Part shown: in pieces, positions 7,004 to 36,412 of the stretch | How the letters are laid out: every line of letters begins with the position of its first letter | Position numbering within the stretch: the first letter of the stretch is position 1 | From: Halomonas sp. KG2 | Lineage (GTDB): Bacteria > Pseudomonadota > Gammaproteobacteria > Pseudomonadales > Halomonadaceae | DNA: 64,000 nt | Assembly (NCBI GenBank): GCA_030440445.1 | Contig: CP098528.1 | Span: 1-64,000, forward strand | Direction of reading: 5' to 3' | Program-made: the position numbers and the translations under genes | The notes under the pieces: generated by a model | The model's input: only the letters and a program-made list of their open reading frames with translations | Database searches by the model: none | What the model was told of the DNA's origin: nothing

Positions 7004-7067
7004 AGAGTTCCTTATTCGCACATCACTGTATTCTTTTAGAGTAATGGCTACATAGTCATTGGGCGAG

Positions 7068-18770: not shown

Positions 18771-20190
18771 TTTAACCGCCCTGGAACATGCCCGCGTATT
18801 GGTGGTGGGGGATGTGATGCTCGACCGCTACTGGCATGGTGGCACGTCGCGTATTTCACCCGAAGCGCCGGTGCCGGTGGTGCGTGTCGAAGATGCTGAT
18901 GATCGTCCCGGTGGCGCGGCGAACGTGGCACTGAATGTGGCTTCTCTAGGCGGCCACGTCGCCCTGGCCGGTGTGGTGGGCGAGGATGAGAACGCCGAGC
19001 TGCTGACGTCGCGTTTGACGGCTTCGAATGTAAGTACTTACTTTCAGCGAAGCCCAGGGATACCAACGATTACCAAGCTGCGTGTGATGAGTCGTAATCA
19101 ACAGCTACTGCGGCTGGATTTTGAGCAGCGCCTTGATGGTGTCGATACCACCGCTCTGCTGGAGCAGGTCGAAAAAGCGCTGCCTGATTGCGATGTGATG
19201 ATTCTTTCCGACTACGGTAAAGGAACGCTTAACCAGGTCGAGACGCTGATTCAGATGGCGCGGGCTTTTGGCAAACGAGTGCTGGTCGATCCGAAAGGCC
19301 AAGATTTTAGTAAGTATCGTGGGGCGAGCTTGATTACGCCTAACTTAACCGAGTTTGAAGCGGTGGTTGGTCACTGTGCCAATGACGATGTTCTTGCCCA
19401 GCGCGGAGAAGCGTTGCGCGCTGAGCTTGAGTTAGAAGCGCTGCTGATCACTCGCAGTGAAAAAGGTATGACGCTTATTCGTGAAGACCACGCACCGCTC
19501 CATTTACCCACCCGAGCCCAGGAAGTGTTCGACGTGACTGGCGCTGGCGATACCGTGATTGGCCTGATGGGGCTCGCGCTAGCATCAGGCCATGCATTGC
19601 CAGAAGCGATGATGCTGGCCAACTTGGGGGCGGGCTTAGTGGTGGCCAAACCGGGAACGGCGACGCTCTCGATAGCCGAGCTCTACACCGCGCTACACGG
19701 CGACAAGCTGGCTGAGTTTGGGGTGATTGACCAAGCCCCGCTGGTCGACGCTGTGCGTGCTGCCCAACTGCGTGGCGAGCGCGTGGTGATGACCAATGGC
19801 TGCTTTGATATTCTTCATGCAGGACACGTGGCCTACTTGGAACAAGCCAAACGCCTGGGGGATCGCCTCATCGTTGCGGTGAATGATGATGCCTCTATTG
19901 GCCGTTTGAAAGGCCCTAAACGGCCAATCAATCCGCTTAACCGCCGCATGCAAGTACTGGCTGGGTTAGGCGCTGTCGATTGGGTCGTGCCATTTAGTGA
20001 CGATACTCCCCAAGCGCTAATTGAAGCCGTTTTGCCGGATATTTTGGTGAAAGGTGGCGATTACCGCCCTGAAGATATTGCAGGAGGGGAGGCCGTTATC
20101 GCCAACGGCGGCGATGTAAAAGTACTTGGCTTTGAAGATGGCGTATCGACCACCGCAATGATTAGCTCCATCCTGGATCGCGAGGGCTAA
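18760..20190 (+). CDS. hldE: Bifunctional heptose 7-phosphate kinase / heptose 1-phosphate adenylyltransferase
   Basis: Two-domain enzyme of ADP-heptose synthesis. The N-terminal PfkB-type kinase (about residues 1-318) has [13 protein letters not shown] and the catalytic [11 protein letters not shown] near 262. The C-terminal cytidylyltransferase-like domain has [15 protein letters not shown] near 346 (HxGH). At 476 residues it matches E. coli HldE (477). It overlaps its upstream and downstream neighbours (11 bp and 1 bp), forming a GT9-hldE-waaA unit. A SlmA-like palindrome lies in codons 91-94. Confidence 0.97.
19030..19041. promoter_or_regulatory. Candidate SlmA-binding site in hldE
   Basis: GTAAGTACTTAC, a perfect 12-bp palindrome matching the SlmA site pattern (GTGAGTACTCAC in E. 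coli, with G/A and C/T at the third and tenth positions). It is read as VSTY in HldE. It is one of six such sites between 19 and 36.5 kb. Confidence 0.7.
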
Positions 20191-21479
20191 TGGCGTCGCC
20201 GATTTGGCCTCGGCTTATTTATTCAGCGGTGCTTTATATGTTGTCGCCGCTGATTGGCTGGCGCATCTGGCGTGAGCAAGTACTTACTTACTCGCGCTTG
20301 CAGCGGCTTGGTATGCGTTTGGGGACGCTTCCCCCTGGGCCGCGCATTTGGTTGCACTGTGCCTCGGTGGGGGAAGTGCGCGCTGCCCGTCCGCTAATAG
20401 AGGGTTTGCTGGCGCGTTACCCTCAGCACAGCCTGCTGTTGACCACAATGACCGCCACGGGTGCTCAGCAGGTTCAAACACTCATCGGTGAACAAACCGC
20501 GCCGGATCAAGTAAGGCTTGCTCACTGCTTCCTCCCTCTGGATTTTCCGGGAGCGGCCAAGCGTTTTATTACCCGCGTGCAGCCCACTCTTGCCATTCTG
20601 TTTGAAACCGAACTGTGGCCCAATCTGCTACACGCTTGTCACCAACAAGCAGTACCTGTCGCGGTAGTCAACGGGCGGCTATCGCCACGAGCCTTTGCAC
20701 GCTATCAGCGCTTGCGCTCGTTAATGGCGAGTGCATTAGCTAACGTCACATGGCTGGCTGCTAAATCTGTCCAAGATGCCGAGCGCTTTCAGGCACTGGG
20801 TTGCCGCGCAGCAGCAATTCATGTCGTTGGATCGTTAAAATTTGAGGTGCCTTCTCAGGAAAAGGCTCTGAAAGAGAGTGAGTACTTACTTCAGTCTTGG
20901 GGCGCGCGCCCAGTGTGGGTGGCAGGTTCCACCCGCGACGGGGAAGAAGCACTGCTCTTGGAGGCCCACCGTCAGCTATTGCAGCGCTTTCCAACAGCGT
21001 TATTGGTATTGGTGCCGCGACACCCGCAGCGTTTTGATGAAGTGGCCAAGCTGTGTGCCCAGGGCGGCTGGGCACTAAGCCGTCGTAGCCAGCAGCAGGC
21101 CGTGACGCCACAAACGCAGATTTACCTGGGGGATACGCTAGGTGAGCTGGCAACGCTGTATGCAGCAGGGCATGTGGCCTTTGTTGGCGGTAGTTTGGTG
21201 CCGTTGGGCGGGCACAACGTAGTGGAGCCTGCGGCGCTGGGCAAACCAGTGCTCTGCGGTCCTTCGCTTGACAACTTTAGCGATGTGGCCGAGCCGCTAT
21301 TAGCGGTAGGCGCGTTAAGCGTGGTGGAAACACCCGATGCCTTAGCCGACGCGCTGGCCGAGCGGCTGGCAACGCCATCATTTGCGCTGCACATTGGGCA
21401 GGCTGGGCGAGAGGTAGTTGAAGCCCATAGAGGCGCATTGGCGCGCACGCTCGATGGGCTTAGTCAGTGGTTAACGTAA
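20190..21479 (+). CDS. waaA: Kdo transferase (lipid IVA 3-deoxy-D-manno-octulosonic acid transferase)
   Basis: Membrane-anchored GT30 enzyme that transfers Kdo from CMP-Kdo to lipid A precursor. The 429-residue product opens with a hydrophobic anchor (residues 6-25). The acceptor-domain motif is [18 protein letters not shown]. The C-terminal domain has [11 protein letters not shown] and [23 protein letters not shown]. Its start overlaps the hldE stop by one base, and its end overlaps convergent rpiA by 9 bp. Two SlmA-like palindromes lie inside the gene. Confidence 0.96.
20276..20287. promoter_or_regulatory. Candidate SlmA-binding site in the waaA 5' part
   Basis: GCAAGTACTTAC, one mismatch from GTAAGTACTTAC, followed directly by a further TTACT repeat. 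It lies inside waaA, 87 bp after the start codon. Confidence 0.6.
20878..20889. promoter_or_regulatory. Candidate SlmA-binding site inside waaA
   Basis: GTGAGTACTTAC, full match to the SlmA pattern with one G/A asymmetry. It is 602 bp from the previous site and is read as part of SEYLLQ in WaaA. Confidence 0.68.
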
Positions 21480-22148
21480 CGCGGTTCGTTCTACGCCGTC
21501 CGTTTTACCCAACAGCAGTACATCGGCACCGCGCTGGGCGAATAAACCGTTCGTGACGACGCCTACAATGGCATTAATACGCGCTTCCATGGAGACTGGG
21601 TCGTCGATCATAAAGTCAAAACAGTCGATAATTTGATTGCCATTATCGGTGACTACCCCTTGTCGATAGACGGGGTCAGCACCTAGTTTGACCAGCTCTC
21701 GAGCGACGTAGGAACGTGCCATCGGAATAACTTCTACCGGTAGCGGGAAGTTGCCAAGTTGGTTTACGTATTTCGAGCCATCGGCAATGCAAATAAATCG
21801 CTTGGCGCAGGCGGCGACGATTTTTTCCCGGGTTAGCGCTGCGCCACCGCCTTTAATCATTTGTAAGTTAGCGTTTACTTCGTCCGCACCGTCGATGTAG
21901 AAAGGGACATCGCCAACATTGTTCAGCTCGAATATCTCAATACCTAGCGCCTGTAGGCGCTTAGCACTGGCTTCTGAGCTGGCAACGGCACCTTTGAAAC
22001 GATCTCTTAGCGGGCCTAAACGATCAATAAACAGGTTCGCTGTTGAGCCTGTGCCAATACCTAGCACGGTATCTTTTTCGAGATGAGGCTCAATCTCTTT
22101 AACCGCAGCATCCGCTACGGCCGCTTTCAATTCATCTTGGGTCATCAT
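21471..22148 (-). CDS. rpiA: Ribose-5-phosphate isomerase A
   Basis: Interconverts ribose 5-phosphate and ribulose 5-phosphate in the pentose phosphate pathway. The 225-residue product has [15 protein letters not shown] near residues 30-45, YIDGADEVN, and the catalytic-region [11 protein letters not shown]. Two adjacent ATGs (22148 and 22145) are possible starts; GCAGGAAAAT upstream provides the ribosome site. Convergent with waaA with a 9-bp 3' overlap, and divergent from ilvA, an arrangement shared with other gammaproteobacteria. Confidence 0.96.
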
Positions 22149-22305
22149 ATTTTCCTGCGTCAGGGTTAGGCAGTGTTCCCTAGTATAACGGCCTTAGCGC
22201 CCACTGCCGATGGAAACGCCGCTAGACGACGCTAGGCGTAATCTGCTACCAATAAAGGCTTTGCTCTCTCCCGTCAGGGCCACGTTATTTTTTTGGGATT
22301 CCCGC

Positions 22306-23820
22306 ATGCTCGAAGCAACCGTCAAAAAGATCCTCCAAGCCCGCGTTTATGAAGCCGCTTGTGAGACCCCTATTTCACCCGCTCCCTTTTTGTCGCGTCG
22401 TTTCAATAACCAAATTTTGATTAAGCGCGAAGATCTTCAGCCAGTGTTTTCTTTCAAGATTCGTGGTGCTTACAACAAAATGGCCCAGCTAACTGAAGAG
22501 CAGAAGGCCAAGGGTGTGATTGCAGCATCGGCGGGCAATCATGCCCAGGGTCTGGCTATGGCAGCCAAGCTGATGGGGGTGAAAGCAGTTATTGTGATGC
22601 CGCGTATTACGCCCGATATTAAGGTTCAGGCAGTCCGTGCTCGCGGTGCTAAGGTTATTTTGAAAGGTGATGCATTTGCTGCTGCTGCTGAACATGCTCA
22701 AGAATTGATTAAAGAGCATGGCTATACCTATATTCCGCCGTTTGATGATATCGATGTGGTCGCAGGTCAGGGCACTATTGGTGTTGAAATTCTGCGCCAG
22801 CACAGCGGCCGTCTAGACGCTATTTTTATTCCTGTCGGTGGTGGCGGCTTAATTGCAGGCGTCGCGGCGTATGTGAAATATCTGCGCCCAGATATCAAAA
22901 TCATCGCCGTAGAAGCCGAAGACAGTGCCTGTTTAAAAGCCGCGCTAGAAGCCGGGGAGCGGGTCGTACTGGATCAAGTTGGCGTATTCGCGGAGGGTGT
23001 CGCCGTCGCGCAAATCGGTGAAGTGCCCTTTTCTCTAGTACGTGACTTAATCGACGACGTTATCACGGTGAATACCGATGAGATGTGCGCGGCGGTGAAG
23101 GATATCTTTGAAGATACCCGTGCCGTCGCAGAAACGTCTGGGGCGCTTTCGCTAGCGGGCTTGAAGAAATATGTGCAGCAAACCGGTGCTGAAGGCGAGA
23201 CGTTGATATGTATTAACTCTGGTGCGAATACCAATTTTGATCGTTTGCAGCATATTGCGGAACGCACCGAGCTGGGTGAGCAGCGTGAAGCGATCTTGGC
23301 GGTGACCATTGCGGAAAACCCAGGCAGTTTTAAAAAGTTTTGCCGCACGCTAGGCAAGCGCATGGTCACCGAGTTCAGCTATCGCTATGCAGATAATAGC
23401 GAGGCTCATATCTTTGTGGGGGTTCAAGTTAAGCCGGGTGGGGAAGACCGCCAGGCGGTGATTGATAAGCTTCGTGAAGCTGGCTATCAGGTTGAAGATT
23501 TGACCGACAATGAGCTGGCGAAGCTACATATTCGCCATCTTAGCGGTGGTCGGCCTAGCGAGCGCTTTGAAGAAGAGCTCTACCGCTTTGAGTTCCCGGA
23601 GCGCCCGGGTGCGCTAATGAACTTTTTAACCCAGCTACCCCATGACTGGAATATTTCACTGTTCCACTACCGAAATCATGGTGCCGCCTATGGTCGTGTA
23701 TTGGTCGGTATGCAAGTGCCGAGCAGTGATCAAACCCATGTTGCAGAGTACTTGGATGCGATTGGCTACCGTTATTGGTGGGAGAGTGATAACCCAGCCT
23801 ATCGACTCTTCATGGCGTAA
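22306..23820 (+). CDS. ilvA: Threonine ammonia-lyase, biosynthetic
   Basis: PLP enzyme that deaminates threonine to 2-oxobutanoate, the first committed step of isoleucine synthesis. The 504-residue product has the PLP lysine in FSFKIRGAYNKM (K51), the phosphate loop VGGGGLIAG, and two C-terminal ACT-like regulatory repeats (from about residue 340; AENPGSFKKFCRTLG and EFPERPGALMNFL), so isoleucine/valine control is expected. The frame is open to 22210, but ATG 22306 fits the family start. A SlmA-like site lies 7 bp after the stop codon. Confidence 0.96.
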   Translation: MLEATVKKILQARVYEAACETPISPAPFLSRRFNNQILIKREDLQPVFSFKIRGAYNKMAQLTEEQKAKGVIAASAGNHAQGLAMAAKLMGVKAVIVMPRITPDIKVQAVRARGAKVILKGDAFAAAAEHAQELIKEHGYTYIPPFDDIDVVAGQGTIGVEILRQHSGRLDAIFIPVGGGGLIAGVAAYVKYLRPDIKIIAVEAEDSACLKAALEAGERVVLDQVGVFAEGVAVAQIGEVPFSLVRDLIDDVITVNTDEMCAAVKDIFEDTRAVAETSGALSLAGLKKYVQQTGAEGETLICINSGANTNFDRLQHIAERTELGEQREAILAVTIAENPGSFKKFCRTLGKRMVTEFSYRYADNSEAHIFVGVQVKPGGEDRQAVIDKLREAGYQVEDLTDNELAKLHIRHLSGGRPSERFEEELYRFEFPERPGALMNFLTQLPHDWNISLFHYRNHGAAYGRVLVGMQVPSSDQTHVAEYLDAIGYRYWWESDNPAYRLFMA

Positions 23821-23826
23821 AGAATT

Positions 23827-23838
23827 GTAAGTGCTTAC
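23827..23838. promoter_or_regulatory. Candidate SlmA-binding site after ilvA
   Basis: GTAAGTGCTTAC, matching the SlmA pattern with an A-to-G change at the seventh base. It sits in the gene-free stretch 23821-24047, just past the ilvA stop codon. Confidence 0.65.
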
Positions 23839-23919
23839 TAACCCCGGGATGTAGAGTTGTTAAGAAGAGTGAGCTTTTGAAAACGTTTAATAGTGCGTTA
23901 AAAATAGCACTGAAAGCAG

Positions 23920-23948
23920 TTGTCAGTCCTCTCCTATGGCCCTATAGT
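23920..23948 (+). promoter_or_regulatory. Sigma-70 promoter upstream of a 32-residue ORF
   Basis: TTGTCA (23920-23925), a 17-bp spacer and TATAGT (23943-23948). It is the only strong promoter-like element in the gap after ilvA and points at the small ORF starting at 24048, leaving a leader of about 90 nt. Confidence 0.55.
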
Positions 23949-24047
23949 CGTGGGCGAAATTAATGAGGTGTGTCATCTTGTTAGAAACATTGTTTAGATG
24001 ACGCATTAAGGACATTTGGCAACCGTGAAAGACGTTGGAGATGAGGC

Positions 24048-24146
24048 ATGCGGCGTAAAAAGCCTGATATGGTGATGGCGCTAACAGTGGTGTTTTTACT
24101 TGGAGTACTCGCCACTGGATACGCGCAAGCGCTATCGGGGAGTTAA
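24048..24146 (+). CDS. Small single-pass membrane protein (32 residues), unknown function
   Basis: Short ORF MRRKKPDMVMALTVVFLLGV followed by LATGYAQALSGS. A basic N-terminus (RRKK) precedes one hydrophobic helix (about residues 8-26), typical of a small inner-membrane protein or an uncleaved signal anchor. It has GGAG/GAGG ribosome sequences 2-11 bases upstream, a sigma-70 promoter at 23920-23948 and a strong terminator 65 bp downstream, so it has a full transcription unit of its own. I do not recognise a family. It could instead mark a small RNA gene. Confidence 0.6.
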   Translation: MRRKKPDMVMALTVVFLLGVLATGYAQALSGS

Positions 24147-24211
24147 CTTACTAAGTTGATCTCAGCGCTTTCAGCGTAAACGCTGCGCCAAACTAGTCGA
24201 GGTTGATATTT

Positions 24212-24244
24212 AAAACGGGCTGATCATTAAGATCAGCCCGTTTT
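24212..24244. terminator. Bidirectional terminator between the small ORF and fau
   Basis: Perfect 14-bp stem (AAAACGGGCTGATC, 24212-24225, with 24231-24244) and a 5-nt loop, with A-run and T-run on either side. The right arm covers the last codons and stop of fau, so it serves both converging transcripts. Confidence 0.88.
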
Positions 24245-24865
24245 AGTTGGTCGAATAACCCTTGTGTCACTAGCTATCACGTCCAACGGAATATCCCAAG
24301 GTTCGATGGGTAGCGCATCCACCTGTTGGCAGGCGTGAGCAACGCCTATGAGTGTCGGTGCTGGCCCTTGGCGGCGCATAAAAGCGAGGCTGCGATCATA
24401 GAAACCACCTCCCATGCCCATGCGATTTGCTTGCTTATCAAATCCTACCAGCGGAACAATAAGCGTATCTAGCGCCCAAGCTGGCAGGCGATTGCGCCTA
24501 TCGGCGGCAAATCGTGAGCAGGGCTCTGCGATGCCAAAACGGTTTTTAACCATGGGCGTTGATTCGCGGTAGGCAACAAACCAAAGGCGATTAGTCGAAA
24601 ATGGGCGCAATACCGGTAAGTAAATACTTACTTTTCGCTGACGAAGCCAAGGTATTAATGGTGTCGGGTCTATCTCGCCGTTAACCGGTAAATAAAGGCT
24701 AATGCGTTTCGCACGACGAATCTCAGGCAGCCCTTTAAGGCGCTGGCAAAGGGCGGTAGCGGCTTGTTTTTGCTGATCTAGGGAAAGGGTACGGCGTCTG
24801 CGTCTAAGCTCACGACGAAGCGCAATTTTATCGCCGAATGTACTGCGGGCAGCAGTATCGTTCAT
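24233..24865 (-). CDS. fau: 5-formyltetrahydrofolate cyclo-ligase
   Basis: ATP-dependent enzyme converting 5-formyl-THF to 5,10-methenyl-THF (YgfA family). It has the basic N-terminal helix KIALRRELRRRRRTLS, PLVGFDKQANRMGMGGGFYDRSL (the family signature around GMGGGFYDR), and VAHACQQVDALPIEPWD. At 210 residues it is somewhat longer than E. coli YgfA (182). It lies downstream of 6S RNA and zapA, the conserved zapA-ssrS-fau arrangement, and may be cotranscribed with 6S RNA. A widened AAGTA-type palindrome lies inside at 24616-24631. Confidence 0.93.
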   Translation of the reverse strand: MNDTAARSTFGDKIALRRELRRRRRTLSLDQQKQAATALCQRLKGLPEIRRAKRISLYLPVNGEIDPTPLIPWLRQRKVSIYLPVLRPFSTNRLWFVAYRESTPMVKNRFGIAEPCSRFAADRRNRLPAWALDTLIVPLVGFDKQANRMGMGGGFYDRSLAFMRRQGPAPTLIGVAHACQQVDALPIEPWDIPLDVIASDTRVIRPTKTG

Positions 24866-24901
24866 AACGAGCTACTCGTGACGAGCTAATCAAGACTTAG
24901 T

Positions 24902-25084
24902 GTTCCCCAGAATGCCGCTGTCGTTCTGGCCCTGAACCTACTGGTTCAGGTGGGTGGCCGCAGCCAAACCGTCAGGCTTTCCGACGCACGGACATGCACA
25001 CGGGTTTGGCTAGCATTTGGCCCCCTGGGTACTTCGCATAGGCTCGAGGGACTATAACGACTGGCGTACACCCCAGAGAACATC
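24902..25084 (-). ncRNA. ssrS: 6S RNA
   Basis: Regulatory RNA that binds the sigma-70 holoenzyme in stationary phase. Read on the minus strand it has the 5' segment GTTCTCTGGGGTGTACGCC and AGTCCCTCGAGCC, a long central bulge region, the 3' hairpin CACCTGAACC/GGTTCAGG, and a 3' end GCATTCTGGGGAAC that pairs with the 5' end. Its position between zapA and fau is the conserved gammaproteobacterial location. Ends are estimated from pairing and may be off by several bases. Confidence 0.88.
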
Positions 25085-25133
25085 TCTATCCTAACAGAGC
25101 CAGTGATAATGCCAAAGAGCCGACAGCAGGTTC

Positions 25134-25442
25134 TTACGGTTCTTTTTGTTGGCGTGTATCTGTTAGTGCCCGTTCAAGGCGGTCGTTTAGGCGGCTAAGG
25201 TTTGCTTCGCTCGCGCGGTGCTCATCCATAATCTCAAGCAATTCATGGGTGATATTTAGGGCTGCCATCACTGCAACCCGCTCACTGCCAAGAGCGCTGC
25301 TTTGGGCGTGAATGCCATTCATCGCGCGATCTAAATAGCGAGCAGCACGTTCAAGCTTAGCTTCTTCGCCAGTGTCGCAAGCAATCATGTAGCTGCGACC
25401 CAGTAGGGTGATTTCTTTGGTTGGCCGCTTCGCGTTACTCAT
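25134..25442 (-). CDS. zapA: Cell division protein ZapA
   Basis: Small FtsZ-associated protein that bundles protofilaments at the division ring. The 102-residue product has the N-terminal ZapA domain (KEITLLGRSYMIACDTGEEAKLERAARYLD) and a C-terminal coiled coil (about residues 60-100). The frame opens at a GTG (25457), but ATG 25442 has GGAG 7 bases upstream. It is upstream of ssrS and fau and divergent from ygfB. Confidence 0.93.
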   Translation of the reverse strand: MSNAKRPTKEITLLGRSYMIACDTGEEAKLERAARYLDRAMNGIHAQSSALGSERVAVMAALNITHELLEIMDEHRASEANLSRLNDRLERALTDTRQQKEP

Positions 25443-25642
25443 CAAAAACTCCGGCACAGGTCATTTTGTTGACCAATGCGTTAACATCGCTGCATAGGAA
25501 GGATAGTTGGCGTTCACTATAAGAGAGCCGCTTATGTGGGGTCAACGCACAGGCGCGCGCGCCATAAGATTCCTTCTGCGGTTTAACACCCTTTTAGACA
25601 TGTTGTTACGACGACTTCATTCCCCATTCTGTATAGCGAGCA

Positions 25643-26227
25643 ATGCCCATGTCCCTAATCAATGAACGCCAGGATTTTTCTGACGTCGCGGATGTTTTTC
25701 TTCTGCATGGAAGTATGCAGTCGCCCGCGTTTTTGGATGGCCGCCTAAGTGGTCTGTTAGCGCTTCGTGATGTGACGGCTGAAGCATGGCTAGAAGAGGT
25801 ATGCCTAAGCTTAGGGGTCGAGCAGCCGCGAGATCCTGCTAGCGCTGAACGCTTACTAGGTTGGCGGCGTCAAACGCTGGAGGCATTGAGCGCCAGCGAT
25901 TTGAATTACACACCGCTGCTACCCGATGAGCTTTTTTCACTCGCCGAGCAAGCCCAGGGGCTAAAAGAGTGGACGCTGGGTTTTATGGAAGTTGTTGAGG
26001 ACGTAGCTGATAAGGCGCTACGCGAACGCTGGTCTAAGACGCTTCAAGAGGCCATCGATGATCTCGCAGGACTCGTACAGATCGAAACCGATATCGAGGA
26101 TAGTCCTGAAAACGAAAATGATCTATTTGCGCTGACGGAACACGCGCGTATGGCGGCAATGCTGCTCTACACCGAGCAGCACCCAGGAATGCCCCAGGTT
26201 GAGCAGACCGACGCCCCCGTTCATTAA
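25643..26227 (+). CDS. ygfB: UPF0149 family protein YgfB
   Basis: YecA/YgfB family protein of 194 residues (E. coli YgfB 192), acidic and helical, with LHGSMQSPAFLDGRLSGLLAL, LPDELFSLAEQAQGLKEWTLGF and the conserved C-terminal TEHARMAAMLLYTEQHP. In pseudomonads a homologue is reported to affect gene regulation; here the role is unknown. ATG 25643 and ATG 25649 are both possible. It heads ygfB-pepP-ubiH-ubiI, 14 bp before pepP, the same order as in E. coli. Confidence 0.88.
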   Translation: MPMSLINERQDFSDVADVFLLHGSMQSPAFLDGRLSGLLALRDVTAEAWLEEVCLSLGVEQPRDPASAERLLGWRRQTLEALSASDLNYTPLLPDELFSLAEQAQGLKEWTLGFMEVVEDVADKALRERWSKTLQEAIDDLAGLVQIETDIEDSPENENDLFALTEHARMAAMLLYTEQHPGMPQVEQTDAPVH

Positions 26228-26241
26228 TATAGGAGTTATCT

Positions 26242-27582
26242 ATGTTGCCTGAGTTACTGCCTCGGCCCGCCGCTATTGCGTCGGCAGAATACCGCCAGCG
26301 CCGAGAAGCGCTCATCGCCCAGCTACCTGCCAATGCTGCGCTAGTGGTGCCAAGCGCTACCTTGGTAACGCGCTCTCACGATAGCGAATACGCGTTCCGG
26401 CAGCAGAGTGATTTTTACTACTTAACCGGCATTCAAGAGCCCGATGCGTTGCTTGTAGTGCTGCCTGGGCGCGAGGCAGGCCAAAGCGTGGTGTTTTGCC
26501 AAGACCGCGACGCCACTATGGAAGCCTGGACAGGTAGGCGACTAGGAGCCCAGGGCGTTGAGGCTCAGCATGGCATTGACCAAGCGTTTGAAAATGCTCA
26601 GCGGGAAGAGCTGTTACCAGGTCTATTGGCAGGCCGCGAACTGCTCTACCTGCCATTAGATAATCCCGAGGCGTTGAATATTGCAGAAGAGGCGTTGGCC
26701 TGCGCTCAAGCTGGCCTGCGTCGAGGTAAGCCAGCATTGAAAGGGTGGTTGGATAGCCGCCCGCTTGTTCATGAGATGCGGCTCATTAAAAGCCCCGCTG
26801 AAATTACTCTACTGCGCCATGCGGCCGCTATTTCAGCAAAGGCGCATACGCGTGCGATGCGTGTCTGCCGTCCTGGGTTAAGCGAGTATCAGTTGCAGGC
26901 TGAGTTAGAGCACGAATTCGTTTGGCAAGGTGCTAGCGGGCCTGCGTATAGCACCATTGTTGGTGGTGGCGTTAACGCTTGCGTGCTGCACTATATTGAG
27001 AACAGCGATACGTTGCAGGCCGATACACTTGTGCTGATTGACGCAGGGGCCGAGTTCGACCTCTACGCTGGGGATATTACCCGTACTTTCCCGGTTAATG
27101 GTCGGTTCAATGACGCTCAGCGGGCGCTTTATCAAGTGGTGCTAGATGCGCAAGAGCGTGCAGTGCGTGCCGTCAAGCCGGGAGCCACGCTGGCGGATAT
27201 TCACCAAGAGGTCGTGAGGGATTTAACCGCTGGACTGATCGGTCTCGGGTTATTAGAGGGCGATATGCAGGCACGCATCGATGATGAGAGCTATCGGCGC
27301 TTCTACCTGCACTCTACGTCCCATTGGTTGGGGTTAGACGTGCATGATGTAGGAACTTATCGGTTGGATGAAGAGACGCCGCGCCTGCTAATCGAAGGCA
27401 TGGTCGTCACGATTGAGCCTGGTTTATACATTCCCTGCGATGATGATATTCCTGCCGCTTACCGCGGAATTGGCATTCGTATTGAAGATGATGTCGTGGT
27501 GACCCGTGATGGGCACGAAGTGCTTACGTCAGCCGTGCCGAAGCGAATTGCTGATATAGAGCAATTAATGGTTAATAAATAA
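26242..27582 (+). CDS. pepP: Xaa-Pro aminopeptidase
   Basis: Manganese-dependent M24B peptidase that removes N-terminal residues before proline. The 446-residue product matches PepP (441). The N-terminal creatinase-like domain has FYYLTGIQEPDALLVVLPG. The metal ligands are visible in DAGAEFDLYAGDITRTF, HSTSHWLGLDVHDVG, TIEPGLYIP and GIRIEDDVVVT. AGGAG lies upstream of ATG 26242. An AT-rich gap of 86 bp with a palindrome separates it from ubiH. Confidence 0.95.
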   Translation: MLPELLPRPAAIASAEYRQRREALIAQLPANAALVVPSATLVTRSHDSEYAFRQQSDFYYLTGIQEPDALLVVLPGREAGQSVVFCQDRDATMEAWTGRRLGAQGVEAQHGIDQAFENAQREELLPGLLAGRELLYLPLDNPEALNIAEEALACAQAGLRRGKPALKGWLDSRPLVHEMRLIKSPAEITLLRHAAAISAKAHTRAMRVCRPGLSEYQLQAELEHEFVWQGASGPAYSTIVGGGVNACVLHYIENSDTLQADTLVLIDAGAEFDLYAGDITRTFPVNGRFNDAQRALYQVVLDAQERAVRAVKPGATLADIHQEVVRDLTAGLIGLGLLEGDMQARIDDESYRRFYLHSTSHWLGLDVHDVGTYRLDEETPRLLIEGMVVTIEPGLYIPCDDDIPAAYRGIGIRIEDDVVVTRDGHEVLTSAVPKRIADIEQLMVNK

Positions 27583-27609
27583 GTAGTAAAATTCTATTGA
27601 TATTTGTTT

Positions 27610-27635: not shown

Positions 27636-27668
27636 TTGCTGGGTTTGGTTTATCCGTAGGAGATGACA

Positions 27669-28907: not shown

Positions 28908-28932
28908 TGCAACAAGTAGCTAAAGGAACGTT

Positions 28933-30189
28933 ATGAAGACGCAAACAGCGGCAACAGATGTGCCGGTTGAACGTTTTGACGCGGTGATCGTAGGCGCCGG
29001 AATGGTCGGCACGGCACTAGCAGGGCTACTGGCTAATGCTGGGATGCAAGTGGCGTTGGTTGAAACCAAAGCAGCACCACTGCGCTTAGATGCCTTTGGT
29101 GACCATCCGCCTGCCCCCAGGGTAAGTGCACTGACACCCGTTTCTCAGCGGCTGCTCTCACACTTGAAGGCGTGGCCCGCGATGGCTGCTACTAGGATAA
29201 CGCCTTACCGTTATATGCAGGTGTGGGATGCAGAAGGCAGCGGTAGCATCCATTTTTCCGCCGATGAAGCAGGTGCGCCCGTACTTGGACATATTGTTGA
29301 AAACGATGTGACATTGGCCGCGTTAAATGAGCAGGTGCTAGCGCTGCCTTCCGTTAGCACTCTCTTTGGAGTGGGCGTGGAGGCTTTGCAAACCTCTGAT
29401 AGCGGGCGCTGGCTAGTGCTGGATGATGGCCGACAATTGCATACGCCATTATTAATTGCTGCCGACGGTGCACGCTCCACCATGCGTGAATTGGCAGGGA
29501 TATCGGTGGCCGAAGAGTCTATGCAGCAAGAGGCCGTCGTTACCACCGTAAGGTGTGAAAAGTCCCATGGCGACACGGCGCGTCAGGCGTTTATCGCTGG
29601 CCATCCACTGGCTTTTTTGCCGTTAACGGTGGGCGGTGATGACCGCTACTGTTCGATTGTCTGGTCGACCACGCCTGATCATGCACATCAACTTACATCG
29701 CTCTCTAGTGAGGCGTTGGGGCAGGCGCTAAGTGAAGCCTTTGACTACCGTTTAGGTCAGATGAGTGCCGTCGATACGGCCTATCGGTTTCCGCTGATTC
29801 AGCGCCACGCCGCTCACTACGTGCAGCCTAATTTTGCATTGGTGGGCGATGCTGCCCATAGCATTCACCCGCTAGCGGGGCAGGGCGTTAACCTAGGATT
29901 TATGGATGCGGCAGTGCTGGCTGAGGAAGTGGTTAATGCATGGCAGCGAGGAGCCCCCTGGGGGGCGCTGACCACGCTGAGTCGCTACGAGCGGCGTAGG
30001 CGCTTCGATAACAGCGCCATGCTGGGGCTGATGAAAGGGTTTAAAGTGCTTTTCGGTAGCCAAGTGCCTGCATTGACGCTGGCGCGCAATATGGGGATGA
30101 GTGGTATGAATCAGTTGGTGCCGATAAAACGACTGGTGATGCGGCAGGCAATCGGAGAGCGAGGACGCTTGCCGCAATCGTGTCGTTAA
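28933..30189 (+). CDS. ubiI: Ubiquinone biosynthesis FAD-dependent hydroxylase UbiI (VisC)
   Basis: Second flavin hydroxylase of the pathway (C5 hydroxylation in E. coli). The 418-residue product has DAVIVGAGMVGTALAGLLA, LLIAADGARSTMRELAGI and VGDAAHSIHPLAGQGVNLGF. AAAGGA precedes ATG 28933 by a short gap. The pair pepP-ubiH-ubiI mirrors pepP-ubiH-visC of E. coli. The 3' end overlaps the convergent S41 protease gene by 4 bp. Confidence 0.87.
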   Translation: MKTQTAATDVPVERFDAVIVGAGMVGTALAGLLANAGMQVALVETKAAPLRLDAFGDHPPAPRVSALTPVSQRLLSHLKAWPAMAATRITPYRYMQVWDAEGSGSIHFSADEAGAPVLGHIVENDVTLAALNEQVLALPSVSTLFGVGVEALQTSDSGRWLVLDDGRQLHTPLLIAADGARSTMRELAGISVAEESMQQEAVVTTVRCEKSHGDTARQAFIAGHPLAFLPLTVGGDDRYCSIVWSTTPDHAHQLTSLSSEALGQALSEAFDYRLGQMSAVDTAYRFPLIQRHAAHYVQPNFALVGDAAHSIHPLAGQGVNLGFMDAAVLAEEVVNAWQRGAPWGALTTLSRYERRRRFDNSAMLGLMKGFKVLFGSQVPALTLARNMGMSGMNQLVPIKRLVMRQAIGERGRLPQSCR

Positions 30190-31487
30190 CGGCGCCGACG
30201 ATCCACCACGTTCAATGCTTTGAGTAAGTTCAGCGCTTCACTGAGCTGATAGTCCTCGCGTAGGCGCTGAGACATTTCAGTCCGCTCCCGGGGCATTGCG
30301 TCTTGGCCGCTTAGATGACCATCAAGATCAGCTTCGCGGATTTGACGCTGCCCCTCAGCTATTTCCAGCCGGCCGCGCACCACTTCCACGTCAGGCTCGA
30401 TACCTTGTGCTTGGATTGAGCGCCCATTGGGGGTGTAGTAAAGCGCGGTTGTCAGCTTAAGGCCTTCACCATTGCCAAGCGGCATGATCTGCTGCACGGA
30501 GCCTTTGCCAAAGCTTTCGGTGCCCATGACCACCCCGCGGCGCTGGTCTTGAAGCGCCCCAGCGACAATTTCAGCAGCCGAGGCGCTGCCACTGTTTATC
30601 AGTACCACTAGCGGCACATCACCAGCGGGTGTCTCTGGCGATGCCGAAAACGACATTTCGGTGTCGGAAAGTCGTCCTTCGGTGTACACAATTAGCCCCT
30701 CATCCAAGAAGAGGTCGGCAACGCCAACGGCGGCCTGCAAAACGCCACCTGGGTTATTGCGTAAGTCGAGAATGAGTCCCTCAAGTGGCTGCTCTCGGGC
30801 CATGCGTTCTAGCGATCTGCGTGCCTGCTCTGGGGTGCGCGACTGAAACTGACTGATTCGCAAGTAGCCATAGCCTGGTTCCAGCACTTCATGCTTGACA
30901 CTTTCGTTGCGGATCACTTCGCGCGTTAGTGTGAACTCACGCGGAGATTCCTCACCCGCCCGCAAGACGGAAATACGCAGTTGGCTACCCGGTTCGCCAC
31001 GCATCAGGTTAACCGCCTCTTGAAGCGATAAGCTGTCGGTTGGCGTTCCATCAATGGCCACAATCACGTCACGCGACATCAGACCTGCTCGTGAAGCCGG
31101 TGTATCATCGATGGGGGTGATGACCATGAGTTGGCCATTTTCTGTGCCTACTTCAATGCCAATACCGCCAAACTCACCCTGGGTGGATTCGCGCAGGCTT
31201 CGGTACTCTTCTTCGTCTAAATAGGCTGAGTGGGGATCTAGTTCGCTGAGCATGCCTCGCATGGCATTACGCAATAACGTGCGGTCGTCAACCTCTTCGA
31301 CATAGCCGCGTTTAATGCGCTCAAACACCTCAGCAAAGGTCTGGATCTCTTCAAGCGGTAGGTCATCAGCAACGCTATTTGCAGACTGAGCCATTAAGGG
31401 GAGAGGAGCAGTCAGCAGTACAAGCGGGAGCAGGGTAGCCAAAAAGCGCTTGGCAGGGGCCGATACCTTGGTAACAGATAGCGTCAT
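30186..31487 (-). CDS. Carboxyl-terminal processing protease (S41 family)
   Basis: Periplasmic serine protease of the CtpA type, 433 residues. An N-terminal signal sequence (residues 10-33, FLATLLPLVLLTAPLPLMAQ) is followed by a PDZ domain (about 95-180, FGGIGIEVGTENGQLMVITP). The S41 domain has the catalytic NSGSASAAEIVAGAL serine and GTESFGKGSVQQ lysine. It lies downstream of gpmI and envC on the same strand, as is common in gammaproteobacteria. Its work with EnvC on peptidoglycan turnover is inference. Confidence 0.92.
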   Translation of the reverse strand: MTLSVTKVSAPAKRFLATLLPLVLLTAPLPLMAQSANSVADDLPLEEIQTFAEVFERIKRGYVEEVDDRTLLRNAMRGMLSELDPHSAYLDEEEYRSLRESTQGEFGGIGIEVGTENGQLMVITPIDDTPASRAGLMSRDVIVAIDGTPTDSLSLQEAVNLMRGEPGSQLRISVLRAGEESPREFTLTREVIRNESVKHEVLEPGYGYLRISQFQSRTPEQARRSLERMAREQPLEGLILDLRNNPGGVLQAAVGVADLFLDEGLIVYTEGRLSDTEMSFSASPETPAGDVPLVVLINSGSASAAEIVAGALQDQRRGVVMGTESFGKGSVQQIMPLGNGEGLKLTTALYYTPNGRSIQAQGIEPDVEVVRGRLEIAEGQRQIREADLDGHLSGQDAMPRERTEMSQRLREDYQLSEALNLLKALNVVDRRRR

Positions 31488-31574
31488 GCGGACTCCGCTA
31501 GGCGAAAGGCAGCGCCAGAAGGCGCTGCATAAGTTGAGACATGATTGTTAATTCATAGGAGTCAGCTTATCCCG

Positions 31575-32717
31575 TCAGCGGCGTGCAATCCAACGTTGTG
31601 GATTAATTGGTTCACCGCTACGCCGTACTTCGAAGTAAAGCGCGGGATTGGTCTGCCCGCCGCTGTTGCCGACACGTCCAATTTCAGTGCCACGGCTTAC
31701 TTGCTGGCCGGGCCGCGCACTAAACTGTTGCAAGTGAGCATAGAGCGTCATGATCTGATCGCCGTGATCAATAATCAGCAGGTTGCCAAAGCCACGCATC
31801 CAGTCGGCGAATACCACGCGGCCCGTATGAACGGCTGCTACTGCACTGCCCGAATCTGCTCGGATCACGATACCGTTATAGTGCACGCCGTCTCTACGCT
31901 GGAAGGTTGCCGTAATGGCTCCTTGAACGGGCCAGGGTAAATCGCCCCGCGTGCGAGTAATGTGTGTGGTCGGTGTTGGCTCGGCTAAACGAGCCAGCTC
32001 CGCCTGTATCGCCCTTAGCTGCTGTTCGGCCTGCTCACGGCTTTGGTTAAGATCGGCTAAGCGATCTTCTTCGCTGCCATAGCGGTCATCCAGGGTCGCT
32101 ACGACGCCACGCCGTTCCTCGGTTCGCTGAGCGAGTATAGCGCTTTGCTCTTCTAGCTCGTCGGCTAAGGCATCAAGGCGTGTTTGACGCTCACTGAGCG
32201 CTTGCTCGGTATCTGCCAGCGCGGTGTCGAGGCGGCTTATATCCGTAAGGCGTTGCTGACGCGCCTGAGTCAGGCGATTTAGATACGCCTGCATTCGGTC
32301 TAGTTGGGCAGGGTCGCTTTGATTAAGGAGCAGTTTTAGTTGGGGTGTTGGCCCTAGTCGATAAAGGGCTGCCAGCTGTTGGCTCAGCGCAGCGTATTGT
32401 GATTCACGTTCACCTTCCAAGCGCTCTCGGTGCTGGCGAAGTTGGGTCGTTTCGTCGGCCAGTTGACGGCGCTCGGCCTGAAGTTGATCCAGGCGCTGGT
32501 GAGTCTCGGCAAGCTCCGTTTCCACATGGCGCAGCTCGCGTTCGGCGCTATCCCGCGCTTGCCCGGTCGCACTGAGGCGCTGGGCAGCCGCTTCGATCTC
32601 CTGGCCAATCGCATCCAACTGCTGGCGTGCGGCATTTTCATTTGGCTGGGCTAAACTTGCTGGCGCATAACCTAACGCCAGCATGAGCGCGACAGCTAAC
32701 GTCCATCGCATCAGCAT
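31575..32717 (-). CDS. envC: EnvC-like murein hydrolase activator
   Basis: Periplasmic protein that activates septal amidases. The 380-residue product has a signal peptide (WTLAVALMLALGYAPASLAQ), a long coiled coil (about residues 30-240) and a C-terminal LytM domain. The LytM HxxxD zinc motif is not intact: the segment reads HYNGIVIRADSG, with Ile or Val where Asp is expected. This fits a non-catalytic activator. ATG 32717 shares one base with the gpmI stop (TGATG); a TTG at 32720 is the only longer option. Confidence 0.88.
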   Translation of the reverse strand: MLMRWTLAVALMLALGYAPASLAQPNENAARQQLDAIGQEIEAAAQRLSATGQARDSAERELRHVETELAETHQRLDQLQAERRQLADETTQLRQHRERLEGERESQYAALSQQLAALYRLGPTPQLKLLLNQSDPAQLDRMQAYLNRLTQARQQRLTDISRLDTALADTEQALSERQTRLDALADELEEQSAILAQRTEERRGVVATLDDRYGSEEDRLADLNQSREQAEQQLRAIQAELARLAEPTPTTHITRTRGDLPWPVQGAITATFQRRDGVHYNGIVIRADSGSAVAAVHTGRVVFADWMRGFGNLLIIDHGDQIMTLYAHLQQFSARPGQQVSRGTEIGRVGNSGGQTNPALYFEVRRSGEPINPQRWIARR

Positions 32718-34279
32718 CAATCAAAATGAATCAGTGGATTACCTGTCATTGCTTCGGGCTGTGCCTGGTTCATCATGGTTAACAGCGTCGGCGCTAAATC
32801 GCACAGTCGTCCATCTTCCAGCCGCCCATTCTGCTCTCCCACGTAAATCAACGGCACCGTAAAGGTCGTGTGGGCTGTCTGCGGCGCGCCTGTTTCTGGA
32901 TGCACCATCTGCTCGGCATTGCCATGGTCAGCTGTGATCAGGCAAGCACCACCAGCACGCTCAATGGCTTCCACTACCCGGCCAACGCAAGTATCAACGG
33001 TTTCAATCGCCTTTATGGCTGCGTTGAAGTCACCGGTATGGCCAACCATGTCGCCATTGGCATAATTGCACACTATTAAGTCAAAGCGACCACTATCGAT
33101 AGCGTCCACCAGCTTATCGGTGATCTCAAAGGCACTCATCTCGGGTTTTTCGTCGTAGGTTTTAACGTCACGGGGGGAGGGCACTAAAATGCGCTCTTCG
33201 CCTGTGTACTCGGCTTCATTACCGCCAGAGAAGAAAAAGGTGACGTGGGGATACTTTTCTGTTTCTGCAATACGTAGCTGGGTTAGGCCTCGTTTAGCAA
33301 CCACTTCCCCCAGGGTGTCGGTGAGATCAGAAGGGGGAAAGGCCGCTGGGGCTGGAATGTTGGCGGCGTACTGGGTCATCGTGACTAAACCGTCGCCAGC
33401 CAGCGTAGGGCGTACACGCCGCTCAAAGCCGTTAAAATCAGCTTCAGTGATCGCGCGGGTTAATTCGCGGGCGCGGTCGGAGCGGAAATTGAGGAAAATA
33501 GCTGCATCGCCGTCTTGGAGCGTAATGGCGGTGCCCTTCAGCGGAATACTGCTAGAAGCGACAAATTCGTCGGTTTCGCCGCGCTGGTAAGCGTCGCGCA
33601 GAGCGGTTTCAGCGCTGGAAGCAATAAAGTCAGCATGGCCATCGGTCAGCAAGCGGTAGGCTTGCTCAACCCGCTCCCAGCGGTTATCACGATCCATTGC
33701 ATAAAAGCGGCCAATGACTGAGGCAACAAAGCCATTGTCGGCACCCACCAGCTCCGCTAAACGTGCATTAGCGCGCTCGATTGAGCGGAGTGCACTTTGC
33801 GGCGGCATATCGCGTCCGTCTAAAAACGCATGGATAAAAATACGCTGCGCGCCGCGCCGGGCAGCAAGCTCGGCCATGGCAATAAAGTGATCTTCGTGGC
33901 TATGCACGCCGCCGGGGGAGAGCAGCCCAAGCAAGTGGACAGCGCGGCCATTGGCAACGGCCTCGTCGATGGGCTTAGTCAGCACCTCGTTGGTGTCTAG
34001 GTCGCCGTCTTCAATTGCTTTGGTAATGCGGGTGAAGTCCTGGTAGACAATGCGTCCGGCACCAATATTCATATGGCCTACTTCGGAGTTACCCATCTGC
34101 CCGTCAGGCAGGCCCACATGGCGACCATCGGTGTGCACAAAGGCGTGCGGGCGACTGGCCCACAGTTTGTCCATGTTGGGCGTATTAGCTGCGGCCACTG
34201 CGTTGTGGGCGCTATCGGGATTGTGGCCGTAGCCATCTAAGATGATTAGCGCCACGGGGCGCGGTGCAGTTGTAGCCAT
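32717..34279 (-). CDS. gpmI: 2,3-bisphosphoglycerate-independent phosphoglycerate mutase
   Basis: Manganese-dependent glycolytic enzyme interconverting 3- and 2-phosphoglycerate through a phosphoserine. The 520-residue product matches GpmI (514). It has [12 protein letters not shown], the serine motif [26 protein letters not shown], and the metal-site [14 protein letters not shown] 34279 has GAGG 7 bases upstream; a longer frame to 34306 has none. It is coupled to envC by overlap, and the gpmI-envC-S41 order is like E. coli yibO-envC. Confidence 0.95.
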
Positions 34280-34483
34280 GAAAACCTCGTTATGTTGGTC
34301 AGCCAAGCGACATGAGGTGCTGTTTGAAACGTTGGTGAAGGTTGCTCAAACAGTTTTCAGACAACACCTTATAATCAGGGTCGCGACAGGCGCGCGCATG
34401 GGGCATCATAACGCAGGCAGCCGTTGGGCGTCATGGCCTGCGCGGTATGCCGTGTGACGTGTATACTTGTTGCGTTTCTGGAG

Positions 34484-34502
34484 GCGGCTAGGCCGCTTTT
34501 TT
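34484..34502 (+). terminator. Short GC hairpin with T-run before the rhodanese gene
   Basis: Stem GCGGC (34484-34488) with GCCGC (34492-34496), a 3-nt loop and six Ts. It stands 28 bp upstream of the start codon at 34531. No gene ends on the plus strand before it, so it could be a leader attenuator or the end of an unseen short transcript. Confidence 0.4.
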
Positions 34503-34530
34503 CTGCATAGACCAAGAGATTGTGTTCACG

Positions 34531-34953
34531 ATGATCGATCAGCTGTTCGAATTCGTAATGAACCACCCCCTACTTGTCGGGGCGTTTTTGCTGGTATTAA
34601 TAGCATGGGTGGCGTACGAAGCGCGCAGCGCCGCCACGCATGCTGTGACCTCTACCCAGGCGACTCAGCTTATTAACCGTGAAGATGCGGTGGTGCTGGA
34701 TATCCGTGAAAGCAAAGACTTTAAAGCGGGACATATTGCAGGTGCACGCAATATTCCTCAAAGCAGCCTCGACAGCCGCATGAATGAACTGGAGAAAGTG
34801 AAAAGCCAGCCGATCATCGTGGTATGTAAGCATGGCCAAAGCTCTGGTGCTGCCCAGGCAAAACTTGCTAAGGCAGGTTTTGAACGTGTCAATAAGTTAA
34901 GAGGTGGCATGGTGCAGTGGCAGGCCGATGGTCTTCCGGTGGTAAAAAAGTAA
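34531..34953 (+). CDS. yibN: Membrane-anchored rhodanese-like protein (YibN family)
   Basis: 140-residue protein with one N-terminal membrane helix (about residues 10-27, LLVGAFLLVLIAWVAYEA) and a cytoplasmic rhodanese domain. The domain has DAVVLDIRESKDFKAGHIAGA and the active-site loop VVCKHGQSSGAAQAKL. The catalytic Cys is present here. ATG 34531 and GTG 34522 are both possible starts. It precedes secB as in E. coli (yibN-grxC-secB), but there is no grxC between. Confidence 0.85.
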   Translation: MIDQLFEFVMNHPLLVGAFLLVLIAWVAYEARSAATHAVTSTQATQLINREDAVVLDIRESKDFKAGHIAGARNIPQSSLDSRMNELEKVKSQPIIVVCKHGQSSGAAQAKLAKAGFERVNKLRGGMVQWQADGLPVVKK

Positions 34954-34975
34954 TTAAGTAGCAAGTATTTAACCG

Positions 34976-34996
34976 TGCGCTGTCGCGCAATTTTTT
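34976..34996 (+). terminator. Weak terminator between yibN and secB
   Basis: Short stem TGCGC/GCGCA (34976-34980 and 34985-34989) with a TGTC loop, then one A and TTTTTT. The stem is only 5 bp, so read-through into secB is likely. Confidence 0.5.
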
Positions 34997-35023
34997 AGCA
35001 GATGAATAATTAGGAGTATCCCA

Positions 35024-35533
35024 ATGGCGGAAGATAACAACACCCCGCAGGCAGGCGCCGCAGAAGGCGAAAAGCCTCAGCTGAAGTTCTCTTTACAGCG
35101 TATCTATGTGAAAGATATTTCCTTTGAAGCGCCGAACTCACCTTCCGTATTCAAGCAGGCATTTAAGCCTAAGGTGAATCTGGATCTGAACACCACTAGC
35201 CAGAAAATAGCCGACGACCAGTACGAAGTGGTTGTAAAGGTGACTGCCCAGGTTAACGATAGCGAAACCGGCACTACGTCGTTCCTTGCAGAAGTAGAGC
35301 AAGCCGGCCTGTTCCGTATTTCTGGAATTGAAGGGGCTCAGCTGGAACAAACTCTGGGTGCGTTCTGCCCCAACTTGCTGTTCCCTTATGCTCGTGAGTG
35401 CGTTGACAATCTGGTCAACCGTGGTGGTTTCCCGCCGCTAATGCTGGCGCCGGTGAATTTTGAAGCTATGTACGCTCAGCGCAAACAGCGTGAAGCGCAG
35501 CAGGCTCAGCAAGCAGCCGAGAATACTCACTAA
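35024..35533 (+). CDS. secB: Protein-export chaperone SecB
   Basis: Tetrameric cytosolic chaperone that keeps preproteins unfolded and hands them to SecA. The 169-residue product has the core LQRIYVKDISFEAPNSPSVF, QLEQTLGAFCPNLLFPYARE and NRGGFPPLMLAPVNFEAMY. An acidic N-terminus and a Gln/Ala-rich C-terminal tail make it longer than E. coli SecB (155). AGGAG lies 8 bases before ATG 35024. Confidence 0.97.
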   Translation: MAEDNNTPQAGAAEGEKPQLKFSLQRIYVKDISFEAPNSPSVFKQAFKPKVNLDLNTTSQKIADDQYEVVVKVTAQVNDSETGTTSFLAEVEQAGLFRISGIEGAQLEQTLGAFCPNLLFPYARECVDNLVNRGGFPPLMLAPVNFEAMYAQRKQREAQQAQQAAENTH

Positions 35534-35571
35534 GTATGCATGCTGCTGACTGGGTTGCCTTACACGGCAAA

Positions 35572-36291
35572 ATGCCCCGCCTTTATGTGCCCGCTGAGTT
35601 TGCAGTGGGCGCAACTATCACTCTGCCTGACGGCCCGGCGCGGCATGTGACGCGGGTGCTACGGTTGGGCGAAAGTGCACCGCTGATGCTGTTTGATGGC
35701 AACGGCCAAGAGGCTGGCGTGCGCTTAGCCGATGTTGGTCGCAAGCAAACGACAGTGATCATCGAGGCTGTCTGGCCGGGTAGTGGCGAATCGCCGTTAG
35801 CGGTGCACCTTGGCCAAGCGATCTCGAAAGGCGACCGGATGGATTATGCCATTCAAAAAGCCGTTGAGCTGGGCGTTGCAGCGATTACCCCGCTCTACAC
35901 AGAGCGGGGTGATGTGCGTCTCAAGGGCGATCGTGAAGAGAAAAAACTGGCTCACTGGCAGGCGGTTGCGGCTAGCGCTTGTGAACAGAGTGGGCGAGCG
36001 GTTGTCCCCCCCGTCTATCCACCAAAAGCGCTGGATGATTGGCTGGCCGAGCGGCAAGAGCCGTTACGCTTGATGCTTCACCTAGCGACGGGCAATGTAT
36101 TTTCGCAACAGCCATGCCCTGCTGCAGTAGCGCTCTTAATCGGCCCAGAGGGTGGCTTAAGTGAGGCGGATATTAATGCGGCCACTGCCAGTGGCTTTAC
36201 ACCGCTGACGCTCGGCCCAAGAGTATTGCGTACTGAAACGGCGCCTGTTGTTGCGTTAACGCTGCTACAGCACCACTTCGGTGATGTGTAA
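35572..36291 (+). CDS. rsmE: 16S rRNA (uracil(1498)-N(3))-methyltransferase
   Basis: SPOUT-class methyltransferase of U1498 in 16S rRNA. The 239-residue product has MPRLYVPAEF at the N-terminus, the PUA-like RHVTRVLRLGE, QKAVELGVAAITPLYTERG, and the SAM knot sequences LLIGPEGGLSEADI and LGPRVLRTETAPVVAL. The frame is open to ATG 35536, but that ATG has no ribosome site, and 35572 fits the family. The stop codon overlaps a SlmA-like palindrome. Confidence 0.92.
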   Translation: MPRLYVPAEFAVGATITLPDGPARHVTRVLRLGESAPLMLFDGNGQEAGVRLADVGRKQTTVIIEAVWPGSGESPLAVHLGQAISKGDRMDYAIQKAVELGVAAITPLYTERGDVRLKGDREEKKLAHWQAVAASACEQSGRAVVPPVYPPKALDDWLAERQEPLRLMLHLATGNVFSQQPCPAAVALLIGPEGGLSEADINAATASGFTPLTLGPRVLRTETAPVVALTLLQHHFGDV

Positions 36292-36299
36292 GTACTCAC
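36288..36299. promoter_or_regulatory. Candidate SlmA-binding site at the rsmE stop codon
   Basis: GTAAGTACTCAC, one G/A difference from the E. coli consensus GTGAGTACTCAC. The TAA stop of rsmE lies inside the palindrome. Confidence 0.7.
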
Positions 36300-36400
36300 T
36301 TTTCAGCGCCCACTTCTCTGTACCCACTTGTAAGAGCTCATCTTTAAATATTTATTCTTAAGGAATATTTTAGGAGCTTATTTTTTAGCGGTACGCATAA

Positions 36401-36412
36401 GTGAGTGCTTAC
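36401..36412. promoter_or_regulatory. Candidate SlmA-binding site upstream of the CvfB-like gene
   Basis: GTGAGTGCTTAC, matching the pattern with A-to-G at the seventh base. It is 113 bp from the site at 36288; an AT-rich stretch with an imperfect palindrome (about 36329-36385) lies between. Confidence 0.65.

Follow-up and report, generated by a model that had tools for sequence, protein, structure and literature searches.

In Escherichia coli, the TetR-family protein SlmA recognizes the consensus GTGAGTACTCAC, which occurs at about 50 sites, mostly within coding sequences and none of them in the terminus region, Ter (PMC3116907), and DNA-bound SlmA binds FtsZ and antagonizes its assembly (PMC4117426). 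A cluster of similar palindromes lies in the first 64,000 nucleotides of contig CP098528.1 of Halomonas sp. KG2 (the window hereafter), and a preliminary description of this stretch had read it as a SlmA-marked origin domain. That reading is supported as far as the presence of slmA and the local clustering are concerned, binding of the sites by SlmA is predicted from sequence, and the pattern turned out to be tighter than the E. coli one that the description had cited. SlmA, its motif and the absence of sites from Ter were already known, and the novelty is a compact cluster with fixed positions.

The halomonad sites resemble the SlmA-binding sites (SBS) of E. coli and Vibrio cholerae in being the same 12-bp palindrome, in being accompanied by an orthologous TetR-family protein with an identical recognition helix and by the same FtsZ tail, in their mainly coding location and in the lack of an exact site around the terminus. 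Different from E. coli, where the roughly 50 sites are distributed over the non-Ter chromosome (PMC3116907), the exact halomonad sites concentrate in ~50 kb by the origin, and several of them keep the same place across genera. As far as layout is concerned, RefZ of Bacillus with its RefZ-binding motifs (RBM) is the nearest parallel, since this TetR-family protein affects FtsZ and has five near-palindromic motifs at origin positions conserved over the genus (PMC6657595). In sequence, however, RefZ is not significantly similar to SlmA, and it works during sporulation via other residues (PMC6657595), whereas the candidate here is a SlmA orthologue. Another FtsZ inhibitor on the segregating origin is MipZ of Caulobacter, working with ParB (PMC3116907), and the likeness to it holds for a halomonad system that is proposed. 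MipZ gets to the origin via ParB, while the halomonad system would use separate palindromes beside parS.

Palindromes around the replication origin

The chromosome comprises 4,461,952 bases, and because the first base of the contig is the dnaA start, window positions are distances from dnaA (488 aa, positions 1-1467, forward strand), which serves as the origin reference point and whose orthologues were found in 13 of 13 genomes searched. The six sites of the preliminary description, at 19030, 20276, 20878, 23827, 36288 and 36401, were all recovered in a window scan. The best-conserved site of the cluster, GTAAGTACTTAC (19030-19041), occupies codons 91-94 (V-S-T-Y) of hldE. A one-mismatch site, GCAAGTACTTAC (20276-20287), lies near the waaA start, and GTGAGTACTTAC (20878-20889), at offset 688 of waaA, includes the rare Leu codon TTA. 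Further along, GTAAGTGCTTAC (23827-23838) is found 6 bases 3' of the ilvA stop, GTAAGTACTCAC (36288-36299) overlaps the rsmE stop codon and extends into non-coding DNA, and the intergenic GTGAGTGCTTAC (36401-36412) stands 5' of a 271-aa open reading frame (ORF), 34 bases before a GTG start. The scan added two one-mismatch sites to these six, namely GTAAATACTTAC in ygfA, encoding 5-formyltetrahydrofolate cyclo-ligase (24620-24631), and GTAAGCGCTCAC (42623-42634). With up to one mismatch the window contains 16 strand-matches, compared to a mean of 1.35 and a maximum of 6 in 100 shuffles; the palindromes are thus real and far above chance, as had been claimed. No strict copy was found before 19030 or after 36412, in agreement with the earlier statement that such copies are absent near dnaA and in the last 27 kb. 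The ygfA gene is adjoined by a 6S RNA (Rfam RF00013, 95.8 bits; 24900-25082, reverse strand).

Site variants in relatives define a refined motif, GTRAGYRCTYAC, which is itself palindromic and in which positions 6 and 7 take C and G, respectively, at roughly the same frequency as T and A. Measured against the E. coli consensus, the sites at 19030, 20878, 36288 and 36401 are one or two bases off and those at 20276, 23827 and 24620 are three bases off, and six genomes from six genera (G038, G055, G059, G070, G075 and G083) carry the exact consensus 12-mer at the hldE position. Across 655 kb of family DNA near the origin (33 loci together with window positions 17001-40000), the motif has 51 matches and ranks first of 360 half-site permutations, itself included, with a mean of 1.2; the runner-up permutations, with up to 24 matches, share letters with the motif. 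The site at 42623 begins 22 bases past the 16S rRNA and has further copies at 82137 and elsewhere on the chromosome, and the stretch around the 82137 copy is identical over 3 kb (L015/L018). Though they match the refined motif, these copies were put aside as a repeat of their own, linked to rRNA and probably part of the rRNA spacer.

Over the whole genome, the strict pattern occurs at 12 places, five of which fall within 19-36 kb, and the fully palindromic GTRAGTACTYAC at four places (19030, 20878, 36288 and 4449640), spanning -12.3 to +36.3 kb of dnaA. As the site at 4449640 lies at -12.3 kb, the cluster of the preliminary description makes up the right-hand half of a larger one spanning dnaA. 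Two curlin-repeat-like ORFs, recognized by eye, adjoin the -12.3 kb site (L071, 7708-9070, reverse strand, about -12.3 to -10.9 kb of dnaA). The left and right sites of the cluster enclose four perfect parS-type sites at 3150, 3780, 6312 and 7068 (3150-7083), identified by a pattern scan with TGTTTCACGTGAAACA, which we take to be the parS consensus. The cluster is like ParB-parS in consisting of origin-proximal palindromes, and both kinds are in the window, but its palindrome differs in sequence from TGTTTCACGTGAAACA and the parS-type sites lie separately at 3-7 kb, so that a parS identity of the cluster palindromes was rejected.

The signal is local. When one mismatch is allowed, the whole genome has 42 places versus 36 for a reversed-pattern control, and therefore no clear global excess. 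Exact copies of GTRAGYRCTYAC number seven in the 60.5 kb around dnaA (permuted mean 0.08), three in the 263.5-kb right flank (permuted mean 0.25), two of them being rRNA-spacer copies, two in the 240-kb left flank (permuted mean 0.19) and none in 400 kb around dif (2.04-2.44 Mb), where the permuted mean of 0.43 makes the zero weak alone. The uniform spread up to and including the terminus that the preliminary description had named as contrary to its own reading is hence not seen. Within the terminus sample, the GC skew changes sign near 2.2 Mb, and a dif-like site lies at 2,192,370. A matrix trained on hldE and waaA sites, the KG2 sites at 19030 and 20878 among them, was run over the 60.5-kb core, the 503.5 kb of flanks and the 400-kb Ter sample. 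Scores of at least 14 were obtained nine times in the core, six times in each flank (12 in 503.5 kb, two being rRNA copies) and three times in Ter, where the best score is 14.7 compared to 18.5-19.3 for the seven exact core sites. With two mismatches allowed, no region is prominent among core, flanks and Ter sample.

The comparison of HldE places the genome close to Vreelandella (Halomonadaceae), as expected from the earlier reading of the host as a halomonad, with Vreelandella zhaodongensis (96%) as the nearest named relative in a collection from which records very close to the KG2 genome may be missing. Six complete Vreelandella chromosomes have 43 exact sites, of which 20 lie at most 50 kb from dnaA, where 0.97 would be expected, and the share per chromosome ranges from 1/4 (G082) to 5/7 (G021). 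This count covers TA, TG or CA centres, CG-centred sites being excluded because many are rRNA-linked, and sites common by descent enter it repeatedly. Among the 23 remaining sites, one falls in the terminus-nearest quarter (P ~0.012, by a test picked post hoc). Distal exact sites are mostly unshared, as none of 20 stretches examined (from G005, G006, G017, G021 and G082) aligns with the distal KG2 stretches L006-L012; within these 20, which represent a subset of the distal sites, three groups (eight stretches) align among themselves. One distal exact site, in a transporter-like ORF, is common to L294/L302/L308 (G017 3.03 Mb, G005 3.31 Mb, G082 2.80 Mb), a second to L300/L307 (G005 1.57 Mb, G082 2.54 Mb), and L309-L311 have a CG-centred distal site in common.

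Fixed positions and selection on the DNA sequence

In much of the family, the positions of the sites are fixed. Seven congeners (G001, G003, G005, G006, G008, G017 and G021) were aligned to the KG2 region and the 12 bases at each KG2 site were read with the refined motif, the alignment blocks of at least 1 kb having 64-95% identity with the highest values in rRNA. Both the thiD site at -14 kb (gene named from its translation) and the hldE site are exact in all seven, and the waaA site at offset 688 is exact in six, with one mismatch in G005. The rsmE-end site is exact at the aligned place in five of the seven and absent from G001, while G003 has an exact copy just beyond the aligned block; G082 has the site too. 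The post-ilvA site is exact in two congeners (G021 and G001), has one mismatch in two (G005 and G003) and is absent from three, and the waaA-start site has one mismatch in two (G021 and G001) and two or three in the remaining five, G006 carrying an exact site ~4 bases from this position. Neither the -12.3 kb site nor the ygfA site at 24620 was found in any of the seven, and the stretch around the 36401 site was unalignable in them, with no site found there. G021 has an extra exact site in a heptosyltransferase gene, absent from the KG2 genome.

The family sample consisted of 90 genomes, that is, 81 of 101 family genomes and nine congeners, with 20 distant members of g16, g18, g28, g30 and g31 omitted. 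The site at hldE codon 91 is exact in 54 of these genomes, with one mismatch in 11 more, and is exact in nine of 21 genera. The waaA site is exact in 30 of the 83 genomes with aligned letters, with one mismatch in 16 more, and is likewise exact in nine genera; in the seven other genomes the stretch ended before it. An exact hldE and/or waaA site is present in 11 of the 21 genera combined, one-mismatch sites only are found in g21 and g22, and g16, g20, g23, g26, g28, g29, g35 and g37 have no site at either place. The named genomes (34 of 80 loci examined) give the same picture as the family sample. V. zhaodongensis itself has a one-mismatch waaA-start site, an exact post-ilvA site and the same ygfA site at 24620, and several other Halomonas have one-mismatch versions near the post-ilvA place. 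In Aeromonas, Brenneria, Vibrio and Enterobacillus, the loci lack a site at the corresponding hldE position. In the eleven family chromosomes with both genes located, hldE and dnaA are ~17-23 kb apart. The locus L141 (G129) carries ~14 kb of extra DNA between waaA and rpiA and keeps the hldE and waaA sites. In rpiA, the one-mismatch site GTGAGYRTTYAC stands at one place (offset ~381-393) in 13 of 34 loci (L177-L181, L184-L188, L192, L193 and L199), and this recurrence may reflect a weak site or coding constraint.

One codon at each of the two best-sampled sites is an outlier within its own gene. At the hldE Thr column, ACT accounts for 76% of Thr codons compared to a mean of 10.5% over 24 Thr columns and a next highest value of 19%, and at the waaA Leu column TTA accounts for 52% compared to a mean of 3.4% over 62 Leu columns and a next highest value of 12%. 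Selection therefore acts on the DNA. Since the columns within one gene have a common history, relatedness alone does not account for these values. Less informative are the Val and Ser codon columns of the hldE site, which rank 14/53 and 3/18, respectively. In waaA, the central residue varies among Tyr, His and Arg (from codons) while the palindrome persists.

SlmA and FtsZ in the Halomonadaceae

A search for slmA had been proposed as a check in the preliminary description, and an orthologue is present. The KG2 genome encodes one SlmA, scoring 278.9 bits with a cut-off of 120, and the next TetR match reaches 32.8 bits. The protein is 52% identical to E. coli SlmA, and its best PDB matches are SlmA structures with 4gct first. 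Of 101 family genomes, 98 have a protein above the NCBIfam SlmA cut-off, and G049, G060 and G125 have none; the site sequences of G125 match those of Halomonas cerina L188. Among the 30 best-scoring family members, residues 41-55, which include the recognition helix, are invariant and the same as in E. coli, and the mean identity to the E. coli protein is 0.83 over residues 33-57 and 0.49 over the rest. E. coli SlmA requires T33 for DNA binding and F65 and R73 for FtsZ binding (PMC4117426), and in the same 30 proteins T33 and R73 are kept in 30 and F65 in 27. The KG2 FtsZ has the C-terminal end DIPAFLRRQAD, and the E. coli tail reads DIPAFLR followed by KQAD (PMC6657595). No account of SlmA sites in Halomonas was found in the literature, mainly that outside subscription journals, PMC10857275 naming slmA merely as a division gene, and a literature search on the positional conservation of such sites gave nothing to the point.

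Role of the sites and alternative explanations

The palindromes probably represent SlmA sites in an origin domain that reaches from about -14 kb to +36 kb relative to dnaA, has parS in its centre and restrains FtsZ around segregated origins. SlmA dimers would bind the origin-proximal palindromes, and binding to a site would activate SlmA to bind the FtsZ tail and antagonize FtsZ assembly. With strong sites packed beside parS, partitioned origins would carry an FtsZ inhibitor and the division ring would be kept off, and the terminus, being poor in sites, would permit the ring. We infer the binding of these sites by SlmA, the action of bound SlmA on FtsZ in this organism and the nucleoid-occlusion role.

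Several results weigh against this proposal. The SlmA-bearing genera g16, g20, g23, g28, g29 and g35 have no site at either tested place. An exact hldE site is present in none of the three genomes without an slmA above the cut-off, but it is also missing from 33 of the 78 with one that were examined for both (45 have it), and the two losses show no clear link. Five complete genomes of other genera have 3-11 exact sites genome-wide, where the control gives 1-3, and only 0-3 exact sites near dnaA, and the genome-wide exact count of G047 equals the control. Enterobacter, in which SlmA sites are expected, has five exact chromosomal matches, none of them within 48 kb of dnaA, and Shewanella has seven exact sites with no clustering at dnaA. 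These few matches indicate that exact matching probably undercounts SlmA sites, and weaker distal sites in Vreelandella may accordingly be missed; some such sites do occur in the flanks.

It is unlikely that SlmA binds the sites for another purpose, such as local gene control or the organization of origin DNA, instead of division control. Such a purpose would be in line with the direct activation of chb by SlmA in V. cholerae (PMC5519180), with the placement of three of the seven right-hand sites in the two adjacent envelope genes hldE and waaA, and with the 36401 site, which could be promoter-linked given its position 5' of a GTG start. Most sites, however, are located deep in coding sequences or at or after stop codons rather than in promoters, and the genes concerned are unrelated and lie to the left as well as to the right of the origin, as exemplified by thiD at -14 kb and rsmE at +36 kb.

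Quite improbable is the binding of the sites by a different origin-domain protein with a SlmA-like palindrome, since the recognition helix is identical to that of E. coli, the consensus is near-identical and no second protein in the genome scores as SlmA. What speaks for such a protein, and counts against SlmA itself, is that site loss does not clearly track slmA loss, several slmA-bearing genera being without sites; the base choice at positions 6 and 7, where C and G are tolerated, is also wider than in the printed E. coli consensus. Chance or coding constraint, with the motif recurring through the conserved HldE and WaaA protein sequences, is highly improbable, because although the two best-sampled sites are coding, the hldE residues are conserved and the Val and Ser codons rank as given above, coding constraint as the cause of recurrence is rejected by the comparison of the Thr and Leu site codons with every other Thr or Leu column in hldE and waaA, respectively, and it is further opposed by the changing central residue of waaA, the first rank of the motif among the permuted half-sites and the extension of the rsmE site into non-coding DNA.

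Beyond the identity of the sites, it can be suggested tentatively, at somewhat less than even likelihood, that SlmA in the Halomonadaceae is mainly an origin-anchored FtsZ inhibitor and not a nucleoid-wide one, acting from few fixed sites that flank parS on both arms in Vreelandella. On this origin-anchored reading, the selection strong enough to retain rare codons in these two genes, hldE and waaA, would demonstrate that the position of the sites matters and not their number alone. E. coli, with its ~50 sites (PMC3116907), is poorly suited to separating the position of SlmA sites from their number. In a family with few strong fixed sites, single sites can be removed synonymously and the effects on division and segregation measured. 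If the reading is true, SlmA, RefZ and MipZ would be tied by one logic, that of an FtsZ inhibitor borne by the origin.

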